Shown here: positions 1 through 25,682 of the stretch, piece after piece
Position numbering within the stretch: position 1 is the stretch's first letter
How the letters are laid out: the number at the start of each line of letters is the position of its first letter
Source: Clostridiales bacterium
GTDB taxonomy: Bacteria > Bacillota > Clostridia > Christensenellales > DTU072
NCBI GenBank assembly: GCA_012800525.1
Contig: JAAZJD010000015.1
Coordinates: 1 to 39,285 of the forward strand
Direction: 5' to 3'
Length of the DNA: 39,285 nt
The notes under the pieces: model-generated
The model's database searches: none
What the model saw: only the letters and a program-made list of their open reading frames with translations
Told to the model about the DNA's origin: nothing
Translations under genes and position numbers: made by a program

Positions 1-3000
1 CTTGGACTTCATTAAAAACTGATGGAGTTGCAGGAAAAGAAAATTTTAGTTTAGTTAACAAGAAAGGTTATTTATGTGTAGAGCATTTGACAACAAAATT
101 TAAGACTGCAAATCCTGAAGCACAAGAATATAGAAGAATGATATACTTTAGAGCTAGGCAAGCAGACTCCGACAATCCTGGCACATATGTATACTATTAT
201 TACACTTTCCCAGTTTGGGATGTTTTTGTAAATTTAGCATCACCTTCAGATGAACTAAAATATGAACTAGAAATAACTCCCCATGGATTCACTCCAAGTA
301 TTGTTACATACAAAACTGAACTTGGTGAAGATGGAATGGGCTTTAGTGTTAGATTTAAATCAGAGAGCACTCAAAATAACATTACATCTATGAATTTTTC
401 TTTTATCATGCTTGATGAAACTCTTGCAGCAAATCCGTTTCAAAATCTAGAAAACTGGATTCCTTTTACAGATTGTGCTTTTGTAGATGACCCATATAAG
501 ATTTGTTTAGCAAAAAAAGATGTTGAGTTGGATGACCGCTTTTTCCCAAATAAGACGACTTTAAGCATTAGATATATATATTTTCAAATAGAAGATACAA
601 CCGATTCACCTTCGGTTAAATATCGTTCGCCTTTGTGGTTTGAAATAAAACTTGAGCCCTCAAATCCACCTGAGGATCTTCAAATTTTAAATGTAAATGC
701 AACATATGAAGGAAATAGAGATTATCCACTTCATATTTCAAATGCATCGGGATTGCCTAAAATATGGTCAAAAGAAGGCATATCCATGGAAGTTTCTACT
801 AGCATACAAGCAACAGACGTTAGAGCTGTATTTATGAATGGTATTTTAGCTAGTCAATCAGTATATTTTTCATATAATGAAGAGACATTGAGATATGAAG
901 CAAATATTTTACATGAAAATATAAGCATTGGAAATGATAGCGTTGGTATGTATTCTGGTGAACTCAAAATTTTTGCTCAAGCAGGAGATATTACAAGGGA
1001 GGTTTCTGTATATGTACACATAGACAGGACAATTCCTAACATTAACTGTGATGCAAAAACGGAAGGTGGGCTTGCTTATAATTATAACGACCCTAATGCA
1101 TGGTCATATGAAAATATAACTTTTGATGTTATAGATACGGTAAGTACAAGACCAATATCTGGCGTGACTTATGAATATCTTAGCGAAGTTGGTTGGAAAG
1201 TTTTGCAAGATTTTGGAAGTTATAAAAGGGTAACAGTATCGCGTACACAAGACATATATATTAGGGCAACAACAGGTGCAGGAAAAATCAATATGCTTTC
1301 AACTAGGGCTAGAATAGATAAAAAGGCCCCTAAGTTAGGTATAGTTGCGAAAGATGGAATCGATGCAAATGGTAAGCAAATATTATCATCTAATCATGAT
1401 TTAGGTGGAGAACCTTTGGGTTCTAGAAGAATTGGTTATGCACAAGATAAACTGACATTTGAATTATTTAATTTGACTACTCAAGATCAAACTGCAAATA
1501 TAATTGAATATTATTGGAAAAAATCTACAGAAGCCACAGGAAGTTATAGGCCTGTTTTGAAGCAAAACAATAAATATATCTTTGTATTAGAAGAAAAATC
1601 TCAAAATTCGTATCTTCCTATTATTAACATAACCATAAACATAAAAATATTAGCAAAGACAGGACTTGGGGAGGTAAAAGATTTTAATGTCACAATTCTC
1701 CCAAGTGGATATTCTGTTGGCATGAATTTGAATTTAGATGATATTCCAAAAGTAGCAAGTAGAACGGGCGAAAAAGTAAACAATGAATTAATAATGTGGT
1801 ATGCTACAGCTCTTCCAATAAAATTTACAGCAAGGAATAATTTAGCAGCACTTGGCACAAGCCAATATAAAGCCTTTAGTTTTATAAGAGGTCAAGAGTT
1901 AGAAACAACACAAGAGTTAGCTTTGATAAAAGATCCAAGTCAAGCTGGAGTACCAACAGGCAGCATAAGAATGGTTGGATATATAGATAGAAGCTTAAAA
2001 AATCAAGAGCTTGGGTTTTATCTTGTTGATAAAGCAGAAAACAAAGTAGATATGAATGCTAACGTTACTCCAAGTGAAAAAATGTTTTCGCCAGCTCTTT
2101 ATTTAGATACAAAAATACCAGAGGCTAATGTTGAAAAGTTTATAGTTGGTGGCTCAGGAAATCCACAAAAACTAGAAGAGGGTGATTGGGCCAAAGGTGC
2201 AGTACAAATAGTTGTTGAAATTGCAACTAATACATTGCCAGTTTCAGGGGCGGCCCTATTTGAAATATATGCTAATGGTGGAGAATCAGGTACTGAGATA
2301 GATGAGAAACAAATTACAGCAACAAAAATTATATATACCATCAATAAGGATACAAAAGGCATATACAAGTATATGCTTCGTTCTGGTTCTGGTGTTGGGG
2401 CCGAAATAGTCGTTGAAGTGAATATTGATAACACAGATATTGTATTGCGTGAAATCAATGCAAAAACTATAGATTCTACAACTGGAAATACTATAAAAGA
2501 TGGTCTCGCGATTGATGGATCTGAAAAGGTATCTTCAACAATAAGAATTGAATTTGACACAAATCATCAAGGTCACTTCGTATATGAGTATATTGATTTT
2601 TCTATGAGTGGTGATCCTAATAGTCCAGATGAAGGCCCAATTAAAATTACAGATAAAGAATATTTTGATATTTTCATGCCTGCAGAAGGCGGTGAAGGAT
2701 GGAAGCGTTTCGGGTTTAGATTATATTCAAAAGCAAAAGATCAAAATGAAGAGGTTTCTACAACAGGCCCTGAATATACGATAGTGAAGTTTCAATATGA
2801 TACAAGATCATATAATATTACATCTACTCCATCAAGTTCAGGTGTAAATTGGATAACTTCTGAAACAAGCATTACATTAGAATTAGATGCAGATTCTATC
2901 AATGTAGCTATTGTTAAATATCAAGTTAAAATAGACCTCGCTTCGGCTCCTGCTGGTACTGAAGCAAAGTGGGTTGATATTGTTATACAAAGTGAGGAAG

Positions 3001-6000
3001 ACCAACTTAAAGCAAGCGACAATTATAAACTAACGTATTTATTCCCTGGATTAAAGTGGTATTTTAATGAACAAGAGAGAATAGGTGATACAGGTGTTAC
3101 TGATATTGGGACATTATATGCTGCTCTGACAGACGAACAAAAACAATATTCTTCATATAACGGAAAATTATATTTTAGAGCAATTAGCGAAAGTGGTATG
3201 CCGAGTGAAGAAAATCATGTTGATATAAAACAAGACACCTCATCAATTAATCCTATATATGGCTTGCATCAGCAATCTGGAGAAAGAGAGTTTGACGCAG
3301 GTGGCTGGATTGCTTATTCTAAACATGATTTTAAATATTGGGATCCAAGTAAAAATGATCTAAGCAAAGCAGTATTAGTTTCAAATAGAGCACCAGTTAG
3401 TTATTTTATTGCAAATACCGCTGACCAACCAGCACTAGATTCATCGGAGTGGGTGGCAGTAAATTCTTTGCAAAATGCATATGTTTTAAATCCTTTGACA
3501 ACAACATACTGGTTAAAGGCAACAAGGGCTGATACATCAGCAGTTTCAAAATTAACAATAAATAAGCAAGCTTCTGAAAATCCTCTCACGATTAGTTTTG
3601 TAGATGCTGAAAATGGTAATCTAGGAAATCAAGAGAATTTATATTTATTTGAATGGGTTGAGAAAGCAGGAATCACTGTAAAGGTAAAAAGCACCTCAAA
3701 AATTTACTATTGGTATAAGATTGGTGAGGGGGAATGGCAGCAATATTTTAATGGAGCGATGACTCCAGGTGCTGAATATACAGACTTTTCTAGATCTATG
3801 ATTTTTGTTGGTGATTTAGATGCTGCAGGCGAAGATGAGAAAGCACATGCAAAAGTAGTGAATATTAAAAACACAGTTCGCATTAAGGTAACAAATCAGG
3901 CTGGTGATGAGGCTATTTTATCGACAAGTTTTTATATCAAAATTGATGTTAATTATCCAAAACTTGATAGTGAGAATATTATTGTTAAAACTGCTTCAGG
4001 GGAGACGCTTGACATAGCAAGTATCAACACTATGTGGCATTCAGAAGATTTAATTATTGAAATTTCAAGAAATTATCAAAATGCAAGTGGTGTTGAATAT
4101 TCATATCGCATGGAAGGACAAAGTGAATATGTTCCGATAGGAAATAATCGAATAAATACGAGTCATATGGTTTCATTCCCAGAAAAAGGCGGAACCGCAA
4201 CAATCGTTTTAAGAGCCGAGCAAAAGTCTCATGGTTATTCTAAAGAGTTTACATTATCCTTTAAGATAGATAAAGTTGTGCCTGACTTTTTATTAGAAGG
4301 CGTTGCATATAAGAGCATCAATAACATATTAACTCCAGTTGGAGGAAAGCTTGATTCTGGCATATGGGTTAATGCGGATGAAGTAAGATTGTTCATTAAG
4401 CCTCGCTTAGATTCTATAGCAATCTCTCCATCAAGATATTATAGATTTGCTGTTGATGAACAAGCATGGACGGAAATTGAAATTGCAGAGTCTTATAAAA
4501 TAAGATCACTAGAGACCGTTCGAATTAAATGTGTAACGGAAGCAGGTAGAGAGGTTGAAAGAATATTCCAAGCTAATATTGACAATGTGGCTCCAACTAT
4601 TAATGCTGGGAAATTCCAAAATCCAACTCCGCCAGAAAATATAACAGATCCTTTAGTATATAACGAATATTATATAGATCAACAAATAACATATATTGAA
4701 GACAATTTGAAAAGTGCTGAATATAATGGATATCCACTGCCATACGGACATATTATAGCGACAAATACCATCGATAACACTGTTTCATATGTTCATATCG
4801 TTGTTGAGGATTTGGCTGGGAATAAGACAGAATTAAAGTTTAAAATGCGTCCATTCCCATTGACAGCAGCTGGTGATGAAAGTGCGATAACTCTCAGTGA
4901 AGAACATTTAAATATGCTTAGGGAATATGAAAATCAATATGAAGAAGCAAAACTTTATGGTTGGTTTAGTCAATCAAGAGATGAGTATTTTTCATCACAA
5001 ATAGCTAGGCTGAAAGATAGAGTTGCTACTATGAGAAAGCAAATTGCAGATTTTCAAGCATTTTTAAGGGATTTTGATACAAGAGCTACATTTGAACTTC
5101 ATTTAGATTATGTAAAGATGAAATCATATTGGGATAAGTTTTATTCTGGTGATCCTCTAATTGAGTACCCACAATGGCAACAAGAACAAATCGTAGAAGG
5201 TTATACAAGTCAATTTGAAAAGTTTAAAGCAGAATACAATAGGTTGCTTGCTAAAATGGTTTCAGTTATTAGAGTTCAAAAGAGTATAGCTTTATTGCCA
5301 GCAACTAATGTTGTAGAAGCATCAGATTATCAAAATGTAATGGCTGTATATGCAAAATATATTGAACTAGCAAGTGATCAAAAAGCTGTATTTAATTCAA
5401 ATTTGAAAAATAAAATTGTTGAGTTGAAGAGAATTTGTGAAGTGTACTTGTTACAGGATAATGAAACTGGAGTTAAAATTTATGGTGAGACTTTAGTTTC
5501 AGAAAACCCTGGTAAACAATTAGAAGTTGAAAGTATTGATAAAAATAGCGAAGTCTTTATTACAACGCAAGACTATTTGATGCAAACACAAACTTCTGAT
5601 AAGGCAAGAAGTGTAATTTCAATCAACACATTATCTCTTAGTGGAACAGGTTCTTCTTATGAACTTGGAACATTTGATATAACACTCACAATTCCAGAAG
5701 AATATAGGCAATATAAATTATTTGCGGTATATAAGAGATCTCCTGATAGGACTTTACATGTCGTCGAAAATATTCAAAGAACCCCTGATGGTAAGCAAAT
5801 TGTCTTTGCTTCTCAAGAGCTTGGAACATATGTACTTGCTGCTTCTTCAAATATACAACCAAGAAGTGACTCAGGAGAGATTTATGGAACTATTGGTGGT
5901 ATAGATATTGATGCTAAAATACTTACATATATTACTTTTGCTGTAATAGGTATTTTCGTTGTCTTTGTCGCAGTAATGGTCTTAATAGGTATTCGTAGGC

Positions 6001-6179
6001 ATCGCTTCTTAGCTAAATACAACAAAGCTCATAAGGGTGCTTTAGTCAAACGTGGAATTGATAAAATTCCAAAAGGAAACCCAGCACCAGCATCAAATCC
6101 AGCAAGACCAGAAGAGAGGGTGCCAACTGAAAAAATTGTTAGGTACAAAACAAGAAAAGCGAAAAACAAAATTAAATAA
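1..6179 (+). CDS. Giant repetitive surface protein (Ig-like/beta-sandwich repeats, helical region, C-terminal TM and basic tail), 5'-truncated by window edge
   Basis: Frame stays open from base 3 to the listed TTG at 87 (WTSLKTDGVAGKENFSLVNKKGYLCVEHLTT...), so 87 is not a real start. Recurrent junctions IDRTIPNI, IDKKAPKL, LDTKIPEA, IDVNYPKL, IDKVVPDF, IDNVAPTI. C-term TM ILTYITFAVIGIFVVFVAVMVLIGI followed by RRHR and a Lys/Arg-rich tail; no LPXTG. Confidence 0.85.
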   Translation, partial: WTSLKTDGVAGKENFSLVNKKGYLCVEHLTTKFKTANPEAQEYRRMIYFRARQADSDNPGTYVYYYYTFPVWDVFVNLASPSDELKYELEITPHGFTPSIVTYKTELGEDGMGFSVRFKSESTQNNITSMNFSFIMLDETLAANPFQNLENWIPFTDCAFVDDPYKICLAKKDVELDDRFFPNKTTLSIRYIYFQIEDTTDSPSVKYRSPLWFEIKLEPSNPPEDLQILNVNATYEGNRDYPLHISNASGLPKIWSKEGISMEVSTSIQATDVRAVFMNGILASQSVYFSYNEETLRYEANILHENISIGNDSVGMYSGELKIFAQAGDITREVSVYVHIDRTIPNINCDAKTEGGLAYNYNDPNAWSYENITFDVIDTVSTRPISGVTYEYLSEVGWKVLQDFGSYKRVTVSRTQDIYIRATTGAGKINMLSTRARIDKKAPKLGIVAKDGIDANGKQILSSNHDLGGEPLGSRRIGYAQDKLTFELFNLTTQDQTANIIEYYWKKSTEATGSYRPVLKQNNKYIFVLEEKSQNSYLPIINITINIKILAKTGLGEVKDFNVTILPSGYSVGMNLNLDDIPKVASRTGEKVNNELIMWYATALPIKFTARNNLAALGTSQYKAFSFIRGQELETTQELALIKDPSQAGVPTGSIRMVGYIDRSLKNQELGFYLVDKAENKVDMNANVTPSEKMFSPALYLDTKIPEANVEKFIVGGSGNPQKLEEGDWAKGAVQIVVEIATNTLPVSGAALFEIYANGGESGTEIDEKQITATKIIYTINKDTKGIYKYMLRSGSGVGAEIVVEVNIDNTDIVLREINAKTIDSTTGNTIKDGLAIDGSEKVSSTIRIEFDTNHQGHFVYEYIDFSMSGDPNSPDEGPIKITDKEYFDIFMPAEGGEGWKRFGFRLYSKAKDQNEEVSTTGPEYTIVKFQYDTRSYNITSTPSSSGVNWITSETSITLELDADSINVAIVKYQVKIDLASAPAGTEAKWVDIVIQSEEDQLKASDNYKLTYLFPGLKWYFNEQERIGDTGVTDIGTLYAALTDEQKQYSSYNGKLYFRAISESGMPSEENHVDIKQDTSSINPIYGLHQQSGEREFDAGGWIAYSKHDFKYWDPSKNDLSKAVLVSNRAPVSYFIANTADQPALDSSEWVAVNSLQNAYVLNPLTTTYWLKATRADTSAVSKLTINKQASENPLTISFVDAENGNLGNQENLYLFEWVEKAGITVKVKSTSKIYYWYKIGEGEWQQYFNGAMTPGAEYTDFSRSMIFVGDLDAAGEDEKAHAKVVNIKNTVRIKVTNQAGDEAILSTSFYIKIDVNYPKLDSENIIVKTASGETLDIASINTMWHSEDLIIEISRNYQNASGVEYSYRMEGQSEYVPIGNNRINTSHMVSFPEKGGTATIVLRAEQKSHGYSKEFTLSFKIDKVVPDFLLEGVAYKSINNILTPVGGKLDSGIWVNADEVRLFIKPRLDSIAISPSRYYRFAVDEQAWTEIEIAESYKIRSLETVRIKCVTEAGREVERIFQANIDNVAPTINAGKFQNPTPPENITDPLVYNEYYIDQQITYIEDNLKSAEYNGYPLPYGHIIATNTIDNTVSYVHIVVEDLAGNKTELKFKMRPFPLTAAGDESAITLSEEHLNMLREYENQYEEAKLYGWFSQSRDEYFSSQIARLKDRVATMRKQIADFQAFLRDFDTRATFELHLDYVKMKSYWDKFYSGDPLIEYPQWQQEQIVEGYTSQFEKFKAEYNRLLAKMVSVIRVQKSIALLPATNVVEASDYQNVMAVYAKYIELASDQKAVFNSNLKNKIVELKRICEVYLLQDNETGVKIYGETLVSENPGKQLEVESIDKNSEVFITTQDYLMQTQTSDKARSVISINTLSLSGTGSSYELGTFDITLTIPEEYRQYKLFAVYKRSPDRTLHVVENIQRTPDGKQIVFASQELGTYVLAASSNIQPRSDSGEIYGTIGGIDIDAKILTYITFAVIGIFVVFVAVMVLIGIRRHRFLAKYNKAHKGALVKRGIDKIPKGNPAPASNPARPEERVPTEKIVRYKTRKAKNKIK

Positions 6180-17427: not shown

Positions 17428-18048
17428 ATGGAAATAAAATCTGAACAAATTAAAAATATAGAAACGCAAAATGGAGTTTCGCGGTTTAAAAAGCGAGTGT
17501 CAACTAGAAAGATAGTTTATTCAGCTCTATTTACAGCTTTAATTGTAATTGGTAGTTATATAACCATTGACATACAGCCTGTGCCTTTTACAATGCAAGT
17601 GCCTTTTGTGTTATTAACTTCTTTGTTGCTTGGTCCAGTATGGGGAACAGTAAGCATCTTTGCTTATATCATGTTAGGTTTACTTGGAGTCCCCGTTTTT
17701 TCTAGCAAAGGAACAGCTGGAATAGCTTATATATTTAAACCTTCTTTTGGGTATTTAATAGGTTTTTTATTTGCAAGTGTTGTTATTGGAGTAATAAGTA
17801 ATTTTAAAAATAATGATGAGTTTACATCTTATCAAAAAATGCTTTTTGCAAACTTGATAGGTATATGTATCATTTATGCGATAGGGATGGGTTATATGTA
17901 TCTAATTATGAAGTTATACCTTAAATTTGAGATTACAGCAAAAAAGATATTTATTTTTGGTTTTTTAATTTTTTTACCAAAAGAACTTATATTTATATTT
18001 TTAACAGCATTTTTAGCTTCAAAGCTGAAACCTTATATTAAAATTTAA
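17428..18048 (+). CDS. bioY: Biotin ECF transporter S component BioY
   Basis: DIQPVPFTMQVPFVLLTSLLLGPVWGTVSIFAYIMLGLLGVPVFSSKGTAGIAYIFKPSFGYLIGF; 7 bp after birA. Confidence 0.93.
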   Translation: MEIKSEQIKNIETQNGVSRFKKRVSTRKIVYSALFTALIVIGSYITIDIQPVPFTMQVPFVLLTSLLLGPVWGTVSIFAYIMLGLLGVPVFSSKGTAGIAYIFKPSFGYLIGFLFASVVIGVISNFKNNDEFTSYQKMLFANLIGICIIYAIGMGYMYLIMKLYLKFEITAKKIFIFGFLIFLPKELIFIFLTAFLASKLKPYIKI

Positions 18049-18383
18049 TTATTTTCTTCTTCAAATTTTTTCAAATTAAAGCTACCGATAACATCTTCAA
18101 CAGGCAAAGCAAATAACAAACCTTGACCTTCTTTATCTAAACCAACAGCTTTATATATTGCTTTCATTATTTCACTTCTAGTGTCTTTTGGTGTTAGGAT
18201 TATTAAAATTTCTTTTTCAGGCTCAATAGCTGCACCTAAAAATGTTTCAATATAAAAATTTCCTGTCCCTCTTGCAGCTAAAACAGTCCCGCCTCTTGCA
18301 CCAGCTTCTCTTGCTGCTTCCATAGCAGTTTCAACATATCCACGTTGTATAATTGTAAAAAGTAATGAGTATCTATTTTCCAT
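18045..18383 (-). CDS. PII-family signalling protein
   Basis: 112 aa; RGYVETAMEAAREAGARGGTVLAARGTG...LGAAIEPEKEILIILTP...GLDKEGQGLLFALPVEDVIG (PII-like C-loop); SD gaggt. Confidence 0.85.
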   Translation of the reverse strand: MENRYSLLFTIIQRGYVETAMEAAREAGARGGTVLAARGTGNFYIETFLGAAIEPEKEILIILTPKDTRSEIMKAIYKAVGLDKEGQGLLFALPVEDVIGSFNLKKFEEENN

Positions 18384-18401
18384 AATGTTTACCTCTTTAA
18401 T

Positions 18402-18752
18402 TTAATCTTCAATAATTTTGCTTCTTAAATGTTTTATTATATCCATGTGAGCAATACTAACAATAGGGATAGTAAACGCAAGTCCCGCACCGTGTTTTGA
18501 AGTAAAATTAAATTCTTCATCTAACAATTTAAAAAGCTCTGAAACTCTGCTTTCTTCAACCACAAGAAAAAATATTGATTTTTCAGGCTCAGAAAATCCC
18601 CATAAGCTTGCAGCTTCTGATGGCGCCGTACCTTTGCCTAAAGAACCAAAATGACAGTTGAAATCATTGGAATTTAGGCATTTCGACAGTTTATTACGTT
18701 TAGTATCTTCAATGATGATAAATGCTATTTTATATTTTTCTAAATCTTGCAA
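18402..18752 (-). CDS. Divergent PII-like protein
   Basis: 116 aa, TTG start with ggag SD; GKGTAPSEAASLWGFSEPEKSIFFLVVEESRVSELFKLLDEEF...KHGAGLAFTIPIVSI aligns with the downstream PII paralog. Confidence 0.65.
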   Translation of the reverse strand: MQDLEKYKIAFIIIEDTKRNKLSKCLNSNDFNCHFGSLGKGTAPSEAASLWGFSEPEKSIFFLVVEESRVSELFKLLDEEFNFTSKHGAGLAFTIPIVSIAHMDIIKHLRSKIIED

Positions 18753-18808
18753 TGTTTTTCTCCTATATATTTACTATAAATAATTTATGTTTAATTCGCA
18801 ACATGGAA

Positions 18809-20431
18809 TTAATCAAAGTCAATTGGTTCATCGCTAATTTCTTCTGCAAAATCAGCAACGATAGGCTTTTCTATTTTGCTAGATTCAATCAATTCAGCTT
18901 CAACTTGGGGATGAGTAGTGAGAGCTGCAATTTCTGTTGTAGGTACAAGTTTTTTCCTTTGAATAGCCTCTGTTTTAATTTTATAAACAAGTCCTGTTAA
19001 TTGTAGTATTAAAATTGGTGTCATTGATATATAAGCAACAAGACCAAAAGCATCAAGCAAAGGATTCCCGCCAACCGAAACACTAGCACCAAGTGTAAAT
19101 GGAAGGGCAAAGGTTGCTGCCATTGCACCAGAAGCGGCGCTTCCGCTATCAAAAGCAATCGCTGTGAATATTGGCTTTACCACAAACATAAGTGCAAGGC
19201 TGACAATATATGTTGGGAGTAAAAACCACCAGATTTTTAATCCAGTTAAAACTCTAATCATAGCAAGTCCAACAGCAATACCAATTCCTGTGCAAAGAGC
19301 AATTAACATAAATCTTTTGGAAATAGAACCACCTGTAAGCTCATCCACTTGTTTAGCTAAAATATGTATTGAGGGTTCAGCTAGAGCTATCATAGCGCCT
19401 ATTGCAAGCCCTAAAGGAATAAGTACCCATTTAAAAGACTTAGAAGCAATTACAAATCCTAATTTCTGTCCTACTGGTGAAAAGCAAGAATTTGCAGCTG
19501 CTAAGAAAATTGATAACCCAAAAAAGGTATAAATAACACCAATTAATATTTTTAAAATAATTTGTTTAGGAAGTTTTAATGTTGTAAATTGGAAAATTAA
19601 GAAGATTATTACAGTTGGTGCTAGAGCAATTCCAACTAGTTTAAACTCAGCAGGGAGTGCTTGACCAAATGTTTTTAGTACATCAGAAAAGTTTTCAACA
19701 TCAATGTGTTCAAGGGGCTTTGGTGAAGCGTTTGGGCGTAGTATTAATGCCATTAACAAAACTGCCAATATTGGTCCTGCTGTAGCAAGGCCTAAAACTC
19801 CAAAACTATTTTGAGATTGATTTTTCCCACCTTTTGCATTTGCAAAACCTATTCCAAAAGCAAGCAAGAATGGTACAGACATAGGGCCTGTAGCAATTCC
19901 TCCACTATCAAAAGCAGTTGAAACGAAGTTGGGTGCATAGATTTCTGCAAGTATTGCTAGAGTGAAAATAATGCAGTAAATAACTAATATGATAATTCTT
20001 AAGGGCCAACTATAATTTGCTCTTAATGTTGAGATAAGGAGCATTATTGCAACAGCGACAGAAACAACAATAATAATTGTCATGTTTTTTTGCCCAGGTG
20101 TAGTTTGAAATAGCTCACCTAAAATTTGTATATCTGGCTCAGAGAAGGCTACAAAAAAGCCTAGTATTAAGGGAATAATGAATATTAAAATTTTTTTATT
20201 ACCTGCAATATTAGCTCCTATTTCTCTTCCAATTTCCATAATTGCCATGTCGGCCCCAAGGGTAAAAAAGGCCATCCCCAAAGTTAGCATAATTGCACCA
20301 AATGCAAACAACCCAAGTTGCATATTTCTTAATTCTGGAAGTCCCAAACCGACAAAAATTACAAGTAGAGTAATAGGGAGAACAGCTATAGCAGATTCTA
20401 GTAATTTTTTAGACAAGTTTTTAAGTATCAT
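18809..20431 (-). CDS. DUF1538 family polytopic membrane protein, internally duplicated
   Basis: 540 aa, many TMs; repeated motifs AFSEPDIQIL/ALAEPSIHIL and TAFDSGGIATGPM/IAFDSGSAASGAM; SD aaaggag. Confidence 0.8.
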   Translation of the reverse strand: MILKNLSKKLLESAIAVLPITLLVIFVGLGLPELRNMQLGLFAFGAIMLTLGMAFFTLGADMAIMEIGREIGANIAGNKKILIFIIPLILGFFVAFSEPDIQILGELFQTTPGQKNMTIIIVVSVAVAIMLLISTLRANYSWPLRIIILVIYCIIFTLAILAEIYAPNFVSTAFDSGGIATGPMSVPFLLAFGIGFANAKGGKNQSQNSFGVLGLATAGPILAVLLMALILRPNASPKPLEHIDVENFSDVLKTFGQALPAEFKLVGIALAPTVIIFLIFQFTTLKLPKQIILKILIGVIYTFFGLSIFLAAANSCFSPVGQKLGFVIASKSFKWVLIPLGLAIGAMIALAEPSIHILAKQVDELTGGSISKRFMLIALCTGIGIAVGLAMIRVLTGLKIWWFLLPTYIVSLALMFVVKPIFTAIAFDSGSAASGAMAATFALPFTLGASVSVGGNPLLDAFGLVAYISMTPILILQLTGLVYKIKTEAIQRKKLVPTTEIAALTTHPQVEAELIESSKIEKPIVADFAEEISDEPIDFD

Positions 20432-20510
20432 TTATAAGTTATTCTCCTTTAACATTTGTTTAGCCAAAGTCGTTATCTTAATTTATCATTTATTTCCATA
20501 AAGAATCAAA

Positions 20511-22967
20511 TTAAATATGCGACTTTCTCTTTTTTTGTATTTTATTTTTTGTCGAATTATATTTTGCAGATATTTTTCTCAAAGCTCTATCTAATCCACT
20601 TTTCCTGCTTGCTTTTTCTGTAATCACAGTTAACAATATAAATATTGGTGCAATCGCAAGACCAATTGGAGCAATTAAAGCTGCAGCATTTAATGGCAAA
20701 GTTGTAAGTTTAAATATATTTTGTGTAATTGGTATAAAAAATGCAATCACAAAAGCTATTAACATGGTAGTAAATAATACAATTCGCATACCATTTAACG
20801 GTAGTGAAGTTTTAAATAATACCATAAAAAATACAAGCCCCATCAATATTACTGTAATGGTTTTAAATTCAGACACTGTAAAAGCAGATTCTACCATTGG
20901 CGAAAATCTTCTTAGCATAGTCATTGTAAAAATAACAGCAAAAACGCAAAGAGCTCCAGGTAGGGCATTAAATACAATTTTATCTAAAAAAGTACCCGTT
21001 ATTCGTTCTTCATTTTTTTCAAGAGCTAAAAAGAATGAAGGTATGCCAACTGTTAGTGAGCTAATAAAAGTGATGTTGATAAGAGAATATGGTAGGTCCT
21101 GATTAACAAATAAAAACAAAAATGCCACAAGTAAACTGTAAATTGTTTTTACAATATATAGTGATGCTGATCTTTCAAGATTATTTACTGATCTTCTTCC
21201 TTCAGCAACAATATATGGTAAACTTGCAAAGTTATTGTCTAATAAAACTATTTGAGAAATGTTTTTTGCCGCATCACTACCTGCAACCATGGCAATAGAA
21301 CAATCGCTTTCCCTTAAAGCTAGCACATCATTTACACCATCTCCTGTCATAGCGACCGTATGTCCTTTTGTTTTTAGTGCTTTTACTAATGTTTGTTTTT
21401 GATCAGGATTTACTCGTCCGAAAACAGTATATTCATCTACTATTTTAGGTAAATCTGAATTTTGGACAGTTGATACATCTATATATTTTTCATAATGATC
21501 AACTCCAGCTTTTCTTGCAACATTTGAAACAGTGATTGGGTTATCTCCAGATATTATTTTTATATCTACTCCTTGATTTTTAAAGAAATTTAGAGTTGCT
21601 TTTGCTTCTTTTCTAATTTTATCTGTAATAAAAACTAAGCCAACTAATTCCATATCATCATTGAGTTTTTGATCAACTAAATGTTTGCTAGATTTTGCAA
21701 CAACTAAAACTCTATTTCCAAGTGCTGATTGCTGATCAATTATTTCTTGTATCTCAGGGGAAATTTCTTTTAAAACAAATTCTGCCGCACCCATCGCATA
21801 GCCTCTTTTCCCTATGTTAGCACCACTCCATTTTCTAGAAGATGAAAAAGCAATAAAAGAACTTGCAGTTTTGGTTTGTGGAGTATCAACAACAAATTCA
21901 CTTATGGCGATAGATGTTGGATTTTTGTCATTTATAGCGGCATCTATATTTTTCAATAATTGTCTAAGTTTTAATTCAGTTTGATTAATCGGCATTATAG
22001 ATTCAACTATCATCACACCTTCTGTTATAGTTCCTGTTTTATCAAGGCAAAGGACATCAACTCTTGCTAGAGTTTCTGTTACATATAAATCTTGTGCTAG
22101 GGCATTATGAGAAGAAATTCTAATAACAGATATGGCAAATACAGCGGTTGTCAAAGCCACAAGACCAGATGGAATTAGTGAAACCATCATTGTTACTGTG
22201 TCTAGTAATGCGGTTTTCATTTCAGTGTTTCTTGCTATAATTTTAATCACCAATAGTGCGATGCCTAGGGGTATTAATATAAAAGTAATTGTTTTGATTA
22301 ATGTATTGAGTGAAAACATAATTTCACTGTTGGGTTTTTTTAAGTACTTTGCACCAGTTTGTATTTTTGTTGCATAGTTATCCTTGCCTACATGGGTAAC
22401 CTTAGTTGTTGCTTTTCCCGATACAACAAAGCTTCCAGATAAAATAGTGTCACCTGGATTTTTAGGTATTGGATCTGGTTCTCCAGTTAACAAAGATTCA
22501 TTTACTTCTATGAAACCTGCAATGATTTTAGAGTCAGAGGAAACTTGATTTCCAGTTTTTAATAGTATTATGTCATCTTGTACAATTTCAGAAACTTCGA
22601 TAGTTGTCTCAACTCCATTTCGTCTAGCTAAAGCTTTTGGTTGAGATAGCAAAGTAAGCTTATCAATTGTTTTTTTTGCTTTGAGTTCTTGCCAAAGACC
22701 AGTTGCAGAATTAACAATAACTAAAACCATGAAACCTAGTTCTTGCCAGCCTAAATTGAATACAACAACAACAATAGCAAATGCTAAAAAGAGCATATTA
22801 AAAAAGGTTAAAGTATGTTCTCTTAAAATTTGTAAGACAGGTTTAGTTTTGACATTTTGATCACCATTGACCCTGCCATCTGCTACTCTTTCAGCAACGT
22901 CCACATCTGTAAGCCCAAACACATTGTCAACAGTTTCTAAATTCTCCACCAAATACCTCAATTCCAA
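20511..22967 (-). CDS. Cation-translocating P-type ATPase (CtpE-like)
   Basis: LTGEPDPIP, TM4 SLIPSGLVALTTAVFAISVIRI, CLDKTGTITEG, GRVNPDQKQTLVKALK, AMTGDGVNDVLALRESDCSIAM. Likely true start GTG at 22949 (gagg SD). Confidence 0.88.
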   Translation of the reverse strand: MELRYLVENLETVDNVFGLTDVDVAERVADGRVNGDQNVKTKPVLQILREHTLTFFNMLFLAFAIVVVVFNLGWQELGFMVLVIVNSATGLWQELKAKKTIDKLTLLSQPKALARRNGVETTIEVSEIVQDDIILLKTGNQVSSDSKIIAGFIEVNESLLTGEPDPIPKNPGDTILSGSFVVSGKATTKVTHVGKDNYATKIQTGAKYLKKPNSEIMFSLNTLIKTITFILIPLGIALLVIKIIARNTEMKTALLDTVTMMVSLIPSGLVALTTAVFAISVIRISSHNALAQDLYVTETLARVDVLCLDKTGTITEGVMIVESIMPINQTELKLRQLLKNIDAAINDKNPTSIAISEFVVDTPQTKTASSFIAFSSSRKWSGANIGKRGYAMGAAEFVLKEISPEIQEIIDQQSALGNRVLVVAKSSKHLVDQKLNDDMELVGLVFITDKIRKEAKATLNFFKNQGVDIKIISGDNPITVSNVARKAGVDHYEKYIDVSTVQNSDLPKIVDEYTVFGRVNPDQKQTLVKALKTKGHTVAMTGDGVNDVLALRESDCSIAMVAGSDAAKNISQIVLLDNNFASLPYIVAEGRRSVNNLERSASLYIVKTIYSLLVAFLFLFVNQDLPYSLINITFISSLTVGIPSFFLALEKNEERITGTFLDKIVFNALPGALCVFAVIFTMTMLRRFSPMVESAFTVSEFKTITVILMGLVFFMVLFKTSLPLNGMRIVLFTTMLIAFVIAFFIPITQNIFKLTTLPLNAAALIAPIGLAIAPIFILLTVITEKASRKSGLDRALRKISAKYNSTKNKIQKKRKSHI

Positions 22968-23091: not shown

Positions 23092-23126
23092 AAAACTCGT
23101 GGCAATTAAGCCACAAGTTTATTTTT
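23092..23126 (-). terminator. Terminator for nanA
   Basis: Minus strand ACTTGTGGCttaattGCCACGAGTttttattt. Confidence 0.75.
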
Positions 23127-23149: not shown

Positions 23150-24037
23150 TTATGACAATTTTTCTTTGTAAAGTTTATCCAATATTTTTTTCTTGTCTAA
23201 AGAGAGTTTTGCAAAAGGTTTTTTGCAGTCTCCCATATCAAAGCCAGCTTTGGAAACAAGATATTTTTCTGATGGCAAAACTCCACATTCAATCAATGTA
23301 GTTATTATATCGCAAATTTCATCTTGTATAGATTTAGCTTTTTTCATATTTCCTTCATTAAATGCAGTATATAAATCAATGTATTTTTGGGGCATTATAT
23401 TATAAGTACTTCCAATTCCACCAGTAGCTCCCATTGAAAGTCCTGCAAGCATAACTTCATCATAACCATTAAATAATGCAACATCACCAAGAGCTTTAAA
23501 TTGGTTTAAAGCAAAAAGATTTTGTGAAGTATGTTTTATTCCTATAATATGTTCATTTTCAAAAAGTTTTTTAAATGTTTGAAGGGTTAGAGGGGAATTG
23601 CCGCTTGGCGAAAAATTGTATATAACCATATCATGTTTCACTGAGTTTACTATATCAAGATAATACTGTATTATTTCATCTTGTGAAAGTCCGTAATAGA
23701 AAGGCACAACAGCAGAAATCGCATCATAGCCTAGTTCTTTAGCATATAAACCCATATCTATTGCAGATTTTGTAGAAAGAGAACCTACATGTACAATAAG
23801 TTTAATATCTTTTGTTGTATATTTTTTTACTAGTTTAAAAAGCTCTTTACGCTCATTATCTTGCATCATTAATGCTTCACCAGTAGACCCTCCAACATAG
23901 AAACCTTGGATGTCAAATTTTAGTAAATAGTTAACATATTGCTCTAGTGCTTTTGCATTAATTTTTTCGTTTTTATCAAAAGGAGTCATTAATGCCACAT
24001 ATATTCCATTGTATTTATTTTTCATATTTTGCCTCAT
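23150..24037 (-). CDS. nanA: N-acetylneuraminate lyase (DapA/NanA family)
   Basis: GFYVGGSTGEALMMQDNERKELF, GIKHTSQNLFALNQFKAL, GYDEVMLAGLSMGATGGIGSTYNIMP. Likely true start 24025 (SD gatgagg). Confidence 0.85.
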   Translation of the reverse strand: MRQNMKNKYNGIYVALMTPFDKNEKINAKALEQYVNYLLKFDIQGFYVGGSTGEALMMQDNERKELFKLVKKYTTKDIKLIVHVGSLSTKSAIDMGLYAKELGYDAISAVVPFYYGLSQDEIIQYYLDIVNSVKHDMVIYNFSPSGNSPLTLQTFKKLFENEHIIGIKHTSQNLFALNQFKALGDVALFNGYDEVMLAGLSMGATGGIGSTYNIMPQKYIDLYTAFNEGNMKKAKSIQDEICDIITTLIECGVLPSEKYLVSKAGFDMGDCKKPFAKLSLDKKKILDKLYKEKLS

Positions 24038-24347
24038 CTTTTATTATTTGCCTATATGTTAACATACATTAAAAAAAAGAACACAATTTACATATCATAA
24101 TTTTTAATAAAACGATGCAATTTTTGCAAGCATCTTTTTATTGTTATTTTTTTTTTTTACTTTATAAATTGAACTTTCGCCATTTAAAAAATTATAAGCT
24201 ATACATGTCGGATGCCTAGATCGTAATTATATATATCATTTGACAAAATCATGTTAGGTGTTTATATTTTAGATAAGATTTTGAGATTAAATAGTGTTTG
24301 TTAAAGTGGTTTTTAATAAATATATGGCACTAGTTTATGGAGAATAT

Positions 24348-25682
24348 ATGTTTTATTCACAAAAAGTTTTTGGAAAAGGCATGGGTAATGCAGATAACTA
24401 TAGAATTCCTGCATTAGTTGTAACAAATAAAAACACGGTTATAGCATGTGCTGATGAAAGGTTTTTTACTGCAACAGATAATCCAAATAAAATCGACAAG
24501 GTAGTAAGAAGAAGTTTTGATGATGGTAAAACTTGGGGGAGATTAAGAACTGCTGTTGCTTCTATAGGGATTTCAGAGAAAAAATCTGTTGCTGCAATAG
24601 ATCCTGCTCTTTTACATGATGCAGTGACTAATACTACGTTTATGCTATATTGTAAAACGCCAGCTGGAATAGGCTTACTTAACAGCAAAGCTTCCGTTGG
24701 AATGGAAGATGGTGGATATATTGTTAGAAAAGATTATAAAAAGTTTATTTTGAAAAATGGCAGGCTATATAAAAATGGTAAAGCTACAGATGTCGAAGTT
24801 GACGAACAAGGTTTTATTGAAAATGATGGGAACATTTATTTAGGTACTAGCAGTTATCGCATAGAGCAAACATCATATTTGATGATTTGTAGTAGTGATG
24901 ACGAAGGTGAGAATTGGACAACACCTATTTGTTTGAATGAGTCTATAAAGAAAAAGCATTGGAGATTTATAGGACCTGGACCAGGTTGTGGCATTCAAAT
25001 CAAGGAAGGTAAGTACAAAGGTAGACTTGTGTTTCCAGTATACTATTCGTGGTTTGCAGGAGATGTAAAAATTGAATGTGCTGTCATATATAGTGATGAT
25101 CATGGTAAAACTTGGAATATAGGAACTAGTCCTTATGTGCCAGGCAAATGGCCAAAAGTTAATGCAAAGCTTATGTCTCCGTCTGCAAGATTAACTGAGT
25201 CTCAAATTGTTGAGCTTGAAGATGGCGTTTTAAAGATTTTCATGAGAAATCATAATCCTAAAAGAAGAATTGCAACAGCATTAAGTTATGATGGTGGTGA
25301 AACTTGGGTAGATTCAAAATATAATGCAACCTTAGTACAACCTGTATCTCAATTTGCAGCAATATCATTTGATTATGAAGGTAAAAGATTAGTTGTAACT
25401 TGTAATCCTGCAAATGAAAAAACAAGAATAAATGGAACCATAAGGATTAGCGAAGATGGTGGCGAAACTTTTCCATATTCACGTCAATTAACACCAGATG
25501 AAAAAACTATGACCGGATATTTTGGTTATAGCTCACTAGCTTTTTTGCCAGATAAGACTGTTGGTTTGCTTTTTGAACCAGATGAAACTTTTGAGGCGAT
25601 TGAGTTCGCTAAATTTTCAATAGACTGGATAAAAGGTAAAACAGATGAGCAGTTTGAAGGCTTTGATTTATTGGAAGACTAA
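24348..25682 (+). CDS. Exo-alpha-sialidase (BNR/Asp-box), no signal peptide visible
   Basis: YRIPALV (RIP motif); Asp-boxes SFDDGKTWG, SSDDEGENW, SDDHGKTWN, SYDGGETWV, SEDGGETFP. ORF listed from GTG 24294; ATG 24348 with ggaga upstream preferred. Confidence 0.85.
   Translation: MFYSQKVFGKGMGNADNYRIPALVVTNKNTVIACADERFFTATDNPNKIDKVVRRSFDDGKTWGRLRTAVASIGISEKKSVAAIDPALLHDAVTNTTFMLYCKTPAGIGLLNSKASVGMEDGGYIVRKDYKKFILKNGRLYKNGKATDVEVDEQGFIENDGNIYLGTSSYRIEQTSYLMICSSDDEGENWTTPICLNESIKKKHWRFIGPGPGCGIQIKEGKYKGRLVFPVYYSWFAGDVKIECAVIYSDDHGKTWNIGTSPYVPGKWPKVNAKLMSPSARLTESQIVELEDGVLKIFMRNHNPKRRIATALSYDGGETWVDSKYNATLVQPVSQFAAISFDYEGKRLVVTCNPANEKTRINGTIRISEDGGETFPYSRQLTPDEKTMTGYFGYSSLAFLPDKTVGLLFEPDETFEAIEFAKFSIDWIKGKTDEQFEGFDLLED

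Follow-up and report, generated by a model that had tools for sequence, protein, structure and literature searches.

Sensing of nitrogen and carbon is the role for which PII proteins are chiefly known. Some of them control membrane transporters, GlnK acting on AmtB and SbtB on SbtA, and NifI1 and NifI2, PII-family proteins of differing type encoded in tandem, act together. A passage of PMC7726332 places PII-NG proteins next to CzcABC/RND cation/proton antiporters (citing Sant'Anna 2009) and presents them as proposed metal sensors. On the transporter side, UmpAB of Halomonas zhaodongensis, the sole characterised DUF1538 pair found, is a heterodimer with pH-dependent Na+(Li+,K+)/H+ antiport activity (PMC5484666). 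It showed activity in Escherichia coli KNabc when carried on a 4.2-kb insert for which no PII gene is described, and PII is not mentioned in the main text of the paper (PMC5484666). Targeted PII/antiporter literature searches found no published account of DUF1538 paired with PII. This pairing, together with the asymmetric split or fused double and triple PII that accompanies it, is new here, whereas a PII-regulated transporter is as such a known kind of system.

The locus lies in the window, the whole stretch of 39,285 nucleotides that was analysed, and comprises the following features:

20511-22967, minus strand: ORF of a P-type ATPase, 818 aa (Pfam PF00122/PF00702, E1-E2 ATPase and HAD hydrolase)
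18809-20431, minus strand: fused double DUF1538 (UmpA-UmpB-like) membrane protein, 540 aa (Pfam PF07556 twice, 1.4e-109)
18812-18919, minus strand: acidic C-terminal tail of the DUF1538 protein (residues 505-540), a candidate PII-docking region (AF2 pLDDT <50 from residue 521; motif count in homologues)
18402-18752, minus strand: PIIb, a divergent PII-like protein, 116 aa, TTG start (iterated PII profile; without a Pfam match)
18045-18383, minus strand: PIIa, a PII-like protein, 112 aa, with GGT and PEKE motifs and without K90 and R101 (PF00543, 1.7e-7)
23093-23120, minus strand: terminator-like hairpin between the aldolase gene and the ATPase (11-pair stem, then a T-rich stretch)

A re-check of the ORFs agrees with the first-pass annotation of this DNA: the four genes are co-directional on the minus strand, with gaps of 79, 56 and 18 bp. 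That annotation noted an SD before each of the last three genes. The ATPase probably starts at the alternative GTG at 22949, which has an SD-like GAGG upstream, and an SD is therefore possible for all four genes. A hairpin search found no terminator-like hairpin in the three gaps, and the hairpin at 23120-23093, upstream of the ATPase, is likely the upstream limit of the transcription unit; the ATPase may share a transcript with the DUF1538-PII genes. At the other end, the PIIa gene lies tail-to-tail with a convergent bioY gene (17428-18048), with a 4-bp overlap at 18045-18048. Scans for Rfam families and tRNAs gave no match in the window.

The two PF07556 stretches of the DUF1538 protein correspond to two copies per functional unit. 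Its AF2 model (50 homologues) contains 14 helices (mean pLDDT 90, pTM 0.86); in each half, helices are broken close to the SEP/AEP and AFDSG motifs. Lysine and arginine average 21.7 per protein in the predicted cytosolic segments vs 4.9 in the outer ones; these positive-inside counts point to N-in/C-in, and so the predicted topology is a 7+7 TM inverted repeat. Eight charged residues (E98, D100, R137, D175, E352, R393, D428 and D460) are invariant in 50/50 aligned homologues. Like UmpAB, the protein belongs to the PF07556 family and consists of paired homologous 7-TM halves, being the fused form of such a pair. Since UmpAB is a DUF1538 antiporter, the statement of the first-pass annotation that DUF1538 has no assigned substrate is out of date. 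By analogy with UmpAB, the DUF1538 family protein of the window is probably a sodium/potassium-proton antiporter. The relationship is, however, remote: the NCBIfam UmpA and UmpB equivalogs (NF041627 and NF041628) score 112 and 96 bits, below their cut-offs of 490 and 500, which the tested homologues also miss, split-pair ones included, and the transfer of substrate from UmpAB is correspondingly distant. In addition, the Halomonas proteins are encoded by two separate genes, and the paper names no PII gene. A PDB search with the DUF1538 profile gave no match, and the best Foldseek hit of the model against solved structures reached E 0.015 with TM <0.2, so that no superfamily is assigned; the model is without a counterpart among solved structures.

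The first-pass annotation proposed a gene-neighbourhood analysis of PF07556 homologues and held that PII-DUF1538 adjacency recurs in Firmicutes. The survey took as its unit a DUF1538 gene or gene pair and drew its loci from Spirochaetota, from plasmids and from the family, order and phylum to which the window belongs. The neighbourhood was taken for every relative with a match, for the 80 top-ranking loci in a scan of GTDB contigs, and for 20 places in spirochaetes, 40 in the phylum and 5 plasmids. PII-like domains lie directly downstream on the same strand in 183/185 units (median gap -4 bp), a count in which Proteobacteria are represented by plasmids only and the sets may share species, so that the units are not independent events. 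The two units without a downstream PII (L075 and L138) both end at a contig end. Adjacency is thus far from rare and stronger than had been supposed, being present in Spirochaetota and Alphaproteobacteria as well as in Firmicutes, and its recurrence excludes chance. DUF1538 itself occurs in 36/58 relatives, in 84/250 genomes of the window's phylum and in 27/149 of the phylum to which a Treponema genome belongs. Among the relatives, 36 have both DUF1538 and PII, two have PII only, none has DUF1538 only and 20 have neither (Fisher p = 1e-13, uncorrected for phylogeny). The 38 relatives found by the double-PII profile are accordingly the 36 DUF1538 carriers plus G026, in which the PII gene sits at a contig end, and G011, in which a PIIa gene has no DUF1538 gene nearby. 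This last case counts against reading the genes as a module, as does G002 (genus g3), where a C-type PII gene and DUF1538 lie on different contigs. Nevertheless, the core of the locus is a PII-DUF1538 module, formed by the last three genes and distributed far more widely than the window. Because DUF1538 is almost always encoded beside PII-type domains, the arrangement suggests that these sensors switch a DUF1538 transporter on or off.

The linkage is kept while the number of domains varies on both sides. The DUF1538 part consists of one gene, of two genes (umpA-umpB type) or of a fused double (the window form), and the PII part is most often a fused double, the other forms being a single domain, two genes and a triple. 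At L267-L272, a DUF1538 gene with one domain (7 TM) stands alone, with no second DUF1538 gene upstream, and is accompanied by a single PII; there, a homodimer of dual topology is possible. Pairs of the umpA-umpB type occur with one PII on Alphaproteobacteria plasmids (L149, L150) and at L248-L252, and with two PII domains at L233-L247. Fused DUF1538 with fused double PII is the commonest arrangement, and fused DUF1538 with two separate PII genes is found in the window and in much of its family. In Spirochaetota (L192-L200), a divergent long DUF1538 (about 500-737 aa) accompanies a triple PII of about 375 aa, in several of which the profile picks up only one or two domains. One of these loci (L192) holds two long-DUF1538/triple-PII units, facing apart.

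The two PII-like proteins of the window differ in how readily they are recognised. PIIa scores above the cut-off of the Pfam P-II model, whereas PIIb matches no Pfam or NCBIfam model, and a PDB sequence search with it returned chance matches only. On iteration, PIIb and PIIa join one profile, and both seeds converge on the same ORF set. PIIb matches the N-terminal domain of the fused double-PII proteins and PIIa is equivalent to the C-terminal one. The AF2 model of one such fused protein (L071) has two ferredoxin-like domains (pLDDT 84) that Foldseek relates to GlnK/PII with probability 1.0 and a TM by target of 0.6-0.7; the P-II fold is thus assigned to PIIa and the fused relative, and to PIIb by profile iteration only. 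The N domains form a clade (140 N and 2 single domains, support 0.98) separate from that of the C domains (140/160, support 0.86), a split that suggests an ancient duplication in which the two domains divided the labour.

In an alignment of 338 PII-like domains with two canonical PII proteins, I, V or L takes the place of K90, R101 is almost always lost (mostly to G) and Q39 is not kept. The T-loop is also shorter, with a G37-K58 span of 16-17 vs 22 residues in canonical PII. With these losses, a canonical nitrogen sensor role is unlikely, and comparison at Q39, K58, G87-K90, R101, R103 and the full T-loop did not place the proteins among the GlnB/GlnK sensors. The database name 'P-II family nitrogen regulator' is probably misleading for these genes. 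K58, however, is mostly kept, and GGT is present in nearly all C domains while mostly lost from N domains; together, these residues suggest a retained ligand pocket. A c-di-AMP receptor of the PstA/DarA type was also considered and rejected, as the genome has no PF06153 match, though a diadenylate cyclase is present.

Taken with the linkage, these features make it reasonably probable, in our judgement, that PIIb and PIIa are a dedicated paired regulator of a DUF1538 monovalent-cation/proton antiporter. The antiporter would consist of two inverted 7-TM halves of the UmpAB type in one chain. PIIb and PIIa, which most relatives have as a single fused chain, would form an asymmetric hetero-oligomer on its cytosolic face, contacting the loops of the antiporter and, in some lineages, perhaps also its acidic C-tail. 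PIIa, with its GGT/PEKE pocket region, would be the sensor of a small ligand, for which an adenine nucleotide or another anion is likelier than 2-oxoglutarate. Its ligand state would block or release cation/H+ exchange, much in the way of GlnK with AmtB and SbtB with SbtA. Those systems likewise have a PII-family gene beside the transporter that its product controls, but their transporters are of other families and the PII is single (canonical in GlnK, adenyl-nucleotide-sensing in SbtB) rather than an N/C pair, split or fused; the window genome, moreover, has no amtB. With two dissimilar PII-family genes in tandem, the locus recalls NifI1/NifI2, whose target is nitrogenase; no nif genes were seen near the window locus. 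If the proposed regulation is true, this near-universal pairing of PII-like proteins with an antiporter would extend PII signalling to ion and pH homeostasis and would provide DUF1538 with a regulator in addition to a substrate class, and a single operon would allow both to be tested.

An almost obligatory linkage would also be expected if the PII-like pair were a constitutive structural subunit or assembly factor, or a direct ion or metal sensor in the manner of CutA/PII-NG, rather than a nucleotide-responsive switch. The loss of canonical ligand residues from both domains, and of GGT from most N domains, fits this explanation, as does the position of PII-NG, proposed as metal sensors, beside CzcABC antiporters in the passage of PMC7726332. 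We nonetheless regard it as unlikely: nearly all C domains retain GGT and most domains K58, which suggests a surviving ligand pocket, and the activity of UmpAB from an insert with no described PII gene (PMC5484666) also counts against it. The likeness to PII-NG is that of a PII-type protein clustered with a cation/proton antiporter; as outlined in that passage, PII-NG has a single PII domain, an RND heavy-metal pump as partner and a mostly proteobacterial distribution. No CzcA/CusA RND pump was seen beside the module, whose neighbours are DUF1538, the P-type ATPase, bioY and the aldolase.

Where a paired regulator might dock was considered for the DUF1538 tail, which in the window reads ...EPIVADFAEEISDEPIDFD and holds only degenerate copies of the motif [IV][IVL][DE][FLY]. 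Of the 122 tails of homologues, 58% have this motif, against 3% of shuffled tails, a control that ignores shared ancestry. It is missing from several lineages that still have double PII, short-tailed ones among them, and was therefore rejected as a universal PII dock.

The first-pass annotation proposed that the two PII-type proteins regulate the DUF1538 protein as a transporter, possibly coupled to cation extrusion by the ATPase. The regulatory part stands as the best inference; the coupling finds no support. The ATPase has DKTGT, together with PSGL in place of the PEGL of many P2 ATPases. The generic P-type model alone reaches its cut-off, and no substrate subfamily does; the nearest solved chains, the Ca2+ ATPase lmo0841 and Na,K-ATPase, are related at superfamily level only. 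Orthologues adjoin DUF1538-PII in just 3/37 family and order units, namely the window and two genomes of genus g11 (L044, 51% identity; L048, 47%), in both of which they lie upstream; the contig of a third g11 genome stops where DUF1538 starts. The other 34 units have no orthologous ATPase beside them, and unrelated P-type ATPases (23-26% identity) lie near a handful of other loci. The ATPase is thus a lineage-specific accessory neighbour outside the conserved module, and any coupling would be equally lineage-specific. The co-directional genes, short gaps without a terminator and the g11 orthologues would suit a single four-gene unit in which ATPase and antiporter, controlled by PII, work together to expel or exchange cations, but with the ATPase absent from those 34 units and its substrate not assignable from a generic model, we hold this to be improbable.

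A nitrogen function is still less probable, indeed very doubtful. It would have DUF1538 carry ammonium (or K+/NH4+) while the PII pair senses nitrogen status in a genome without amtB; membership of the PII family and the transport of monovalent cations including K+ by UmpAB (PMC5484666) are compatible with it. The genome (95% complete) indeed contains no amtB (PF00909), although the same model matches in 14/14 control genomes, and no other PF00543 match above the cut-off, hence no canonical PII. However, neither amtB nor another nitrogen gene was seen near the module, and the PII-like proteins have lost the canonical 2-OG/ATP residues and the full length of the T-loop. Furthermore, Hungatella, Mobilisporobacter and Enterococcus have canonical PII genes besides the DUF1538 module, so that the two roles look separate. 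The earlier view that this is not classical ammonium control is therefore upheld.

Cation/proton antiporters of another kind also have PII-type neighbours. The window's own genome carries two tandem PF00999 cation/H+ antiporters (541 and 549 aa), each with a PII-like gene of 118 aa after it (L273, contig C17, 4312-8687); these pairs lie shortly upstream of a large ORF resembling rpoB. Adjacent PII-like and PF00999 genes occur in six more genomes (L289-L294), and the PF00999 family is unrelated to DUF1538. With PII-NG next to CzcABC, these cases make PII-type genes beside cation/proton antiporters a repeated theme. Tentatively, PII-like proteins could form a general class dedicated to the control of cation/proton antiporters, having joined at least three unrelated families on separate occasions (DUF1538, PF00999 and, by PII-NG, RND), with the DUF1538 branch having moved to an obligate asymmetric double or triple PII in which one domain only has the ligand pocket.

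Elsewhere in the window, a 2030-aa ORF at 87-6179 has no Pfam match at E 0.001. The region 23150-25682 encodes an N-acetylneuraminate-lyase-like aldolase on the minus strand, divergent from a BNR/Asp-box (sialidase-like) protein; GH5 and GH2 genes lie near these two and suggest host- or plant-glycan use.
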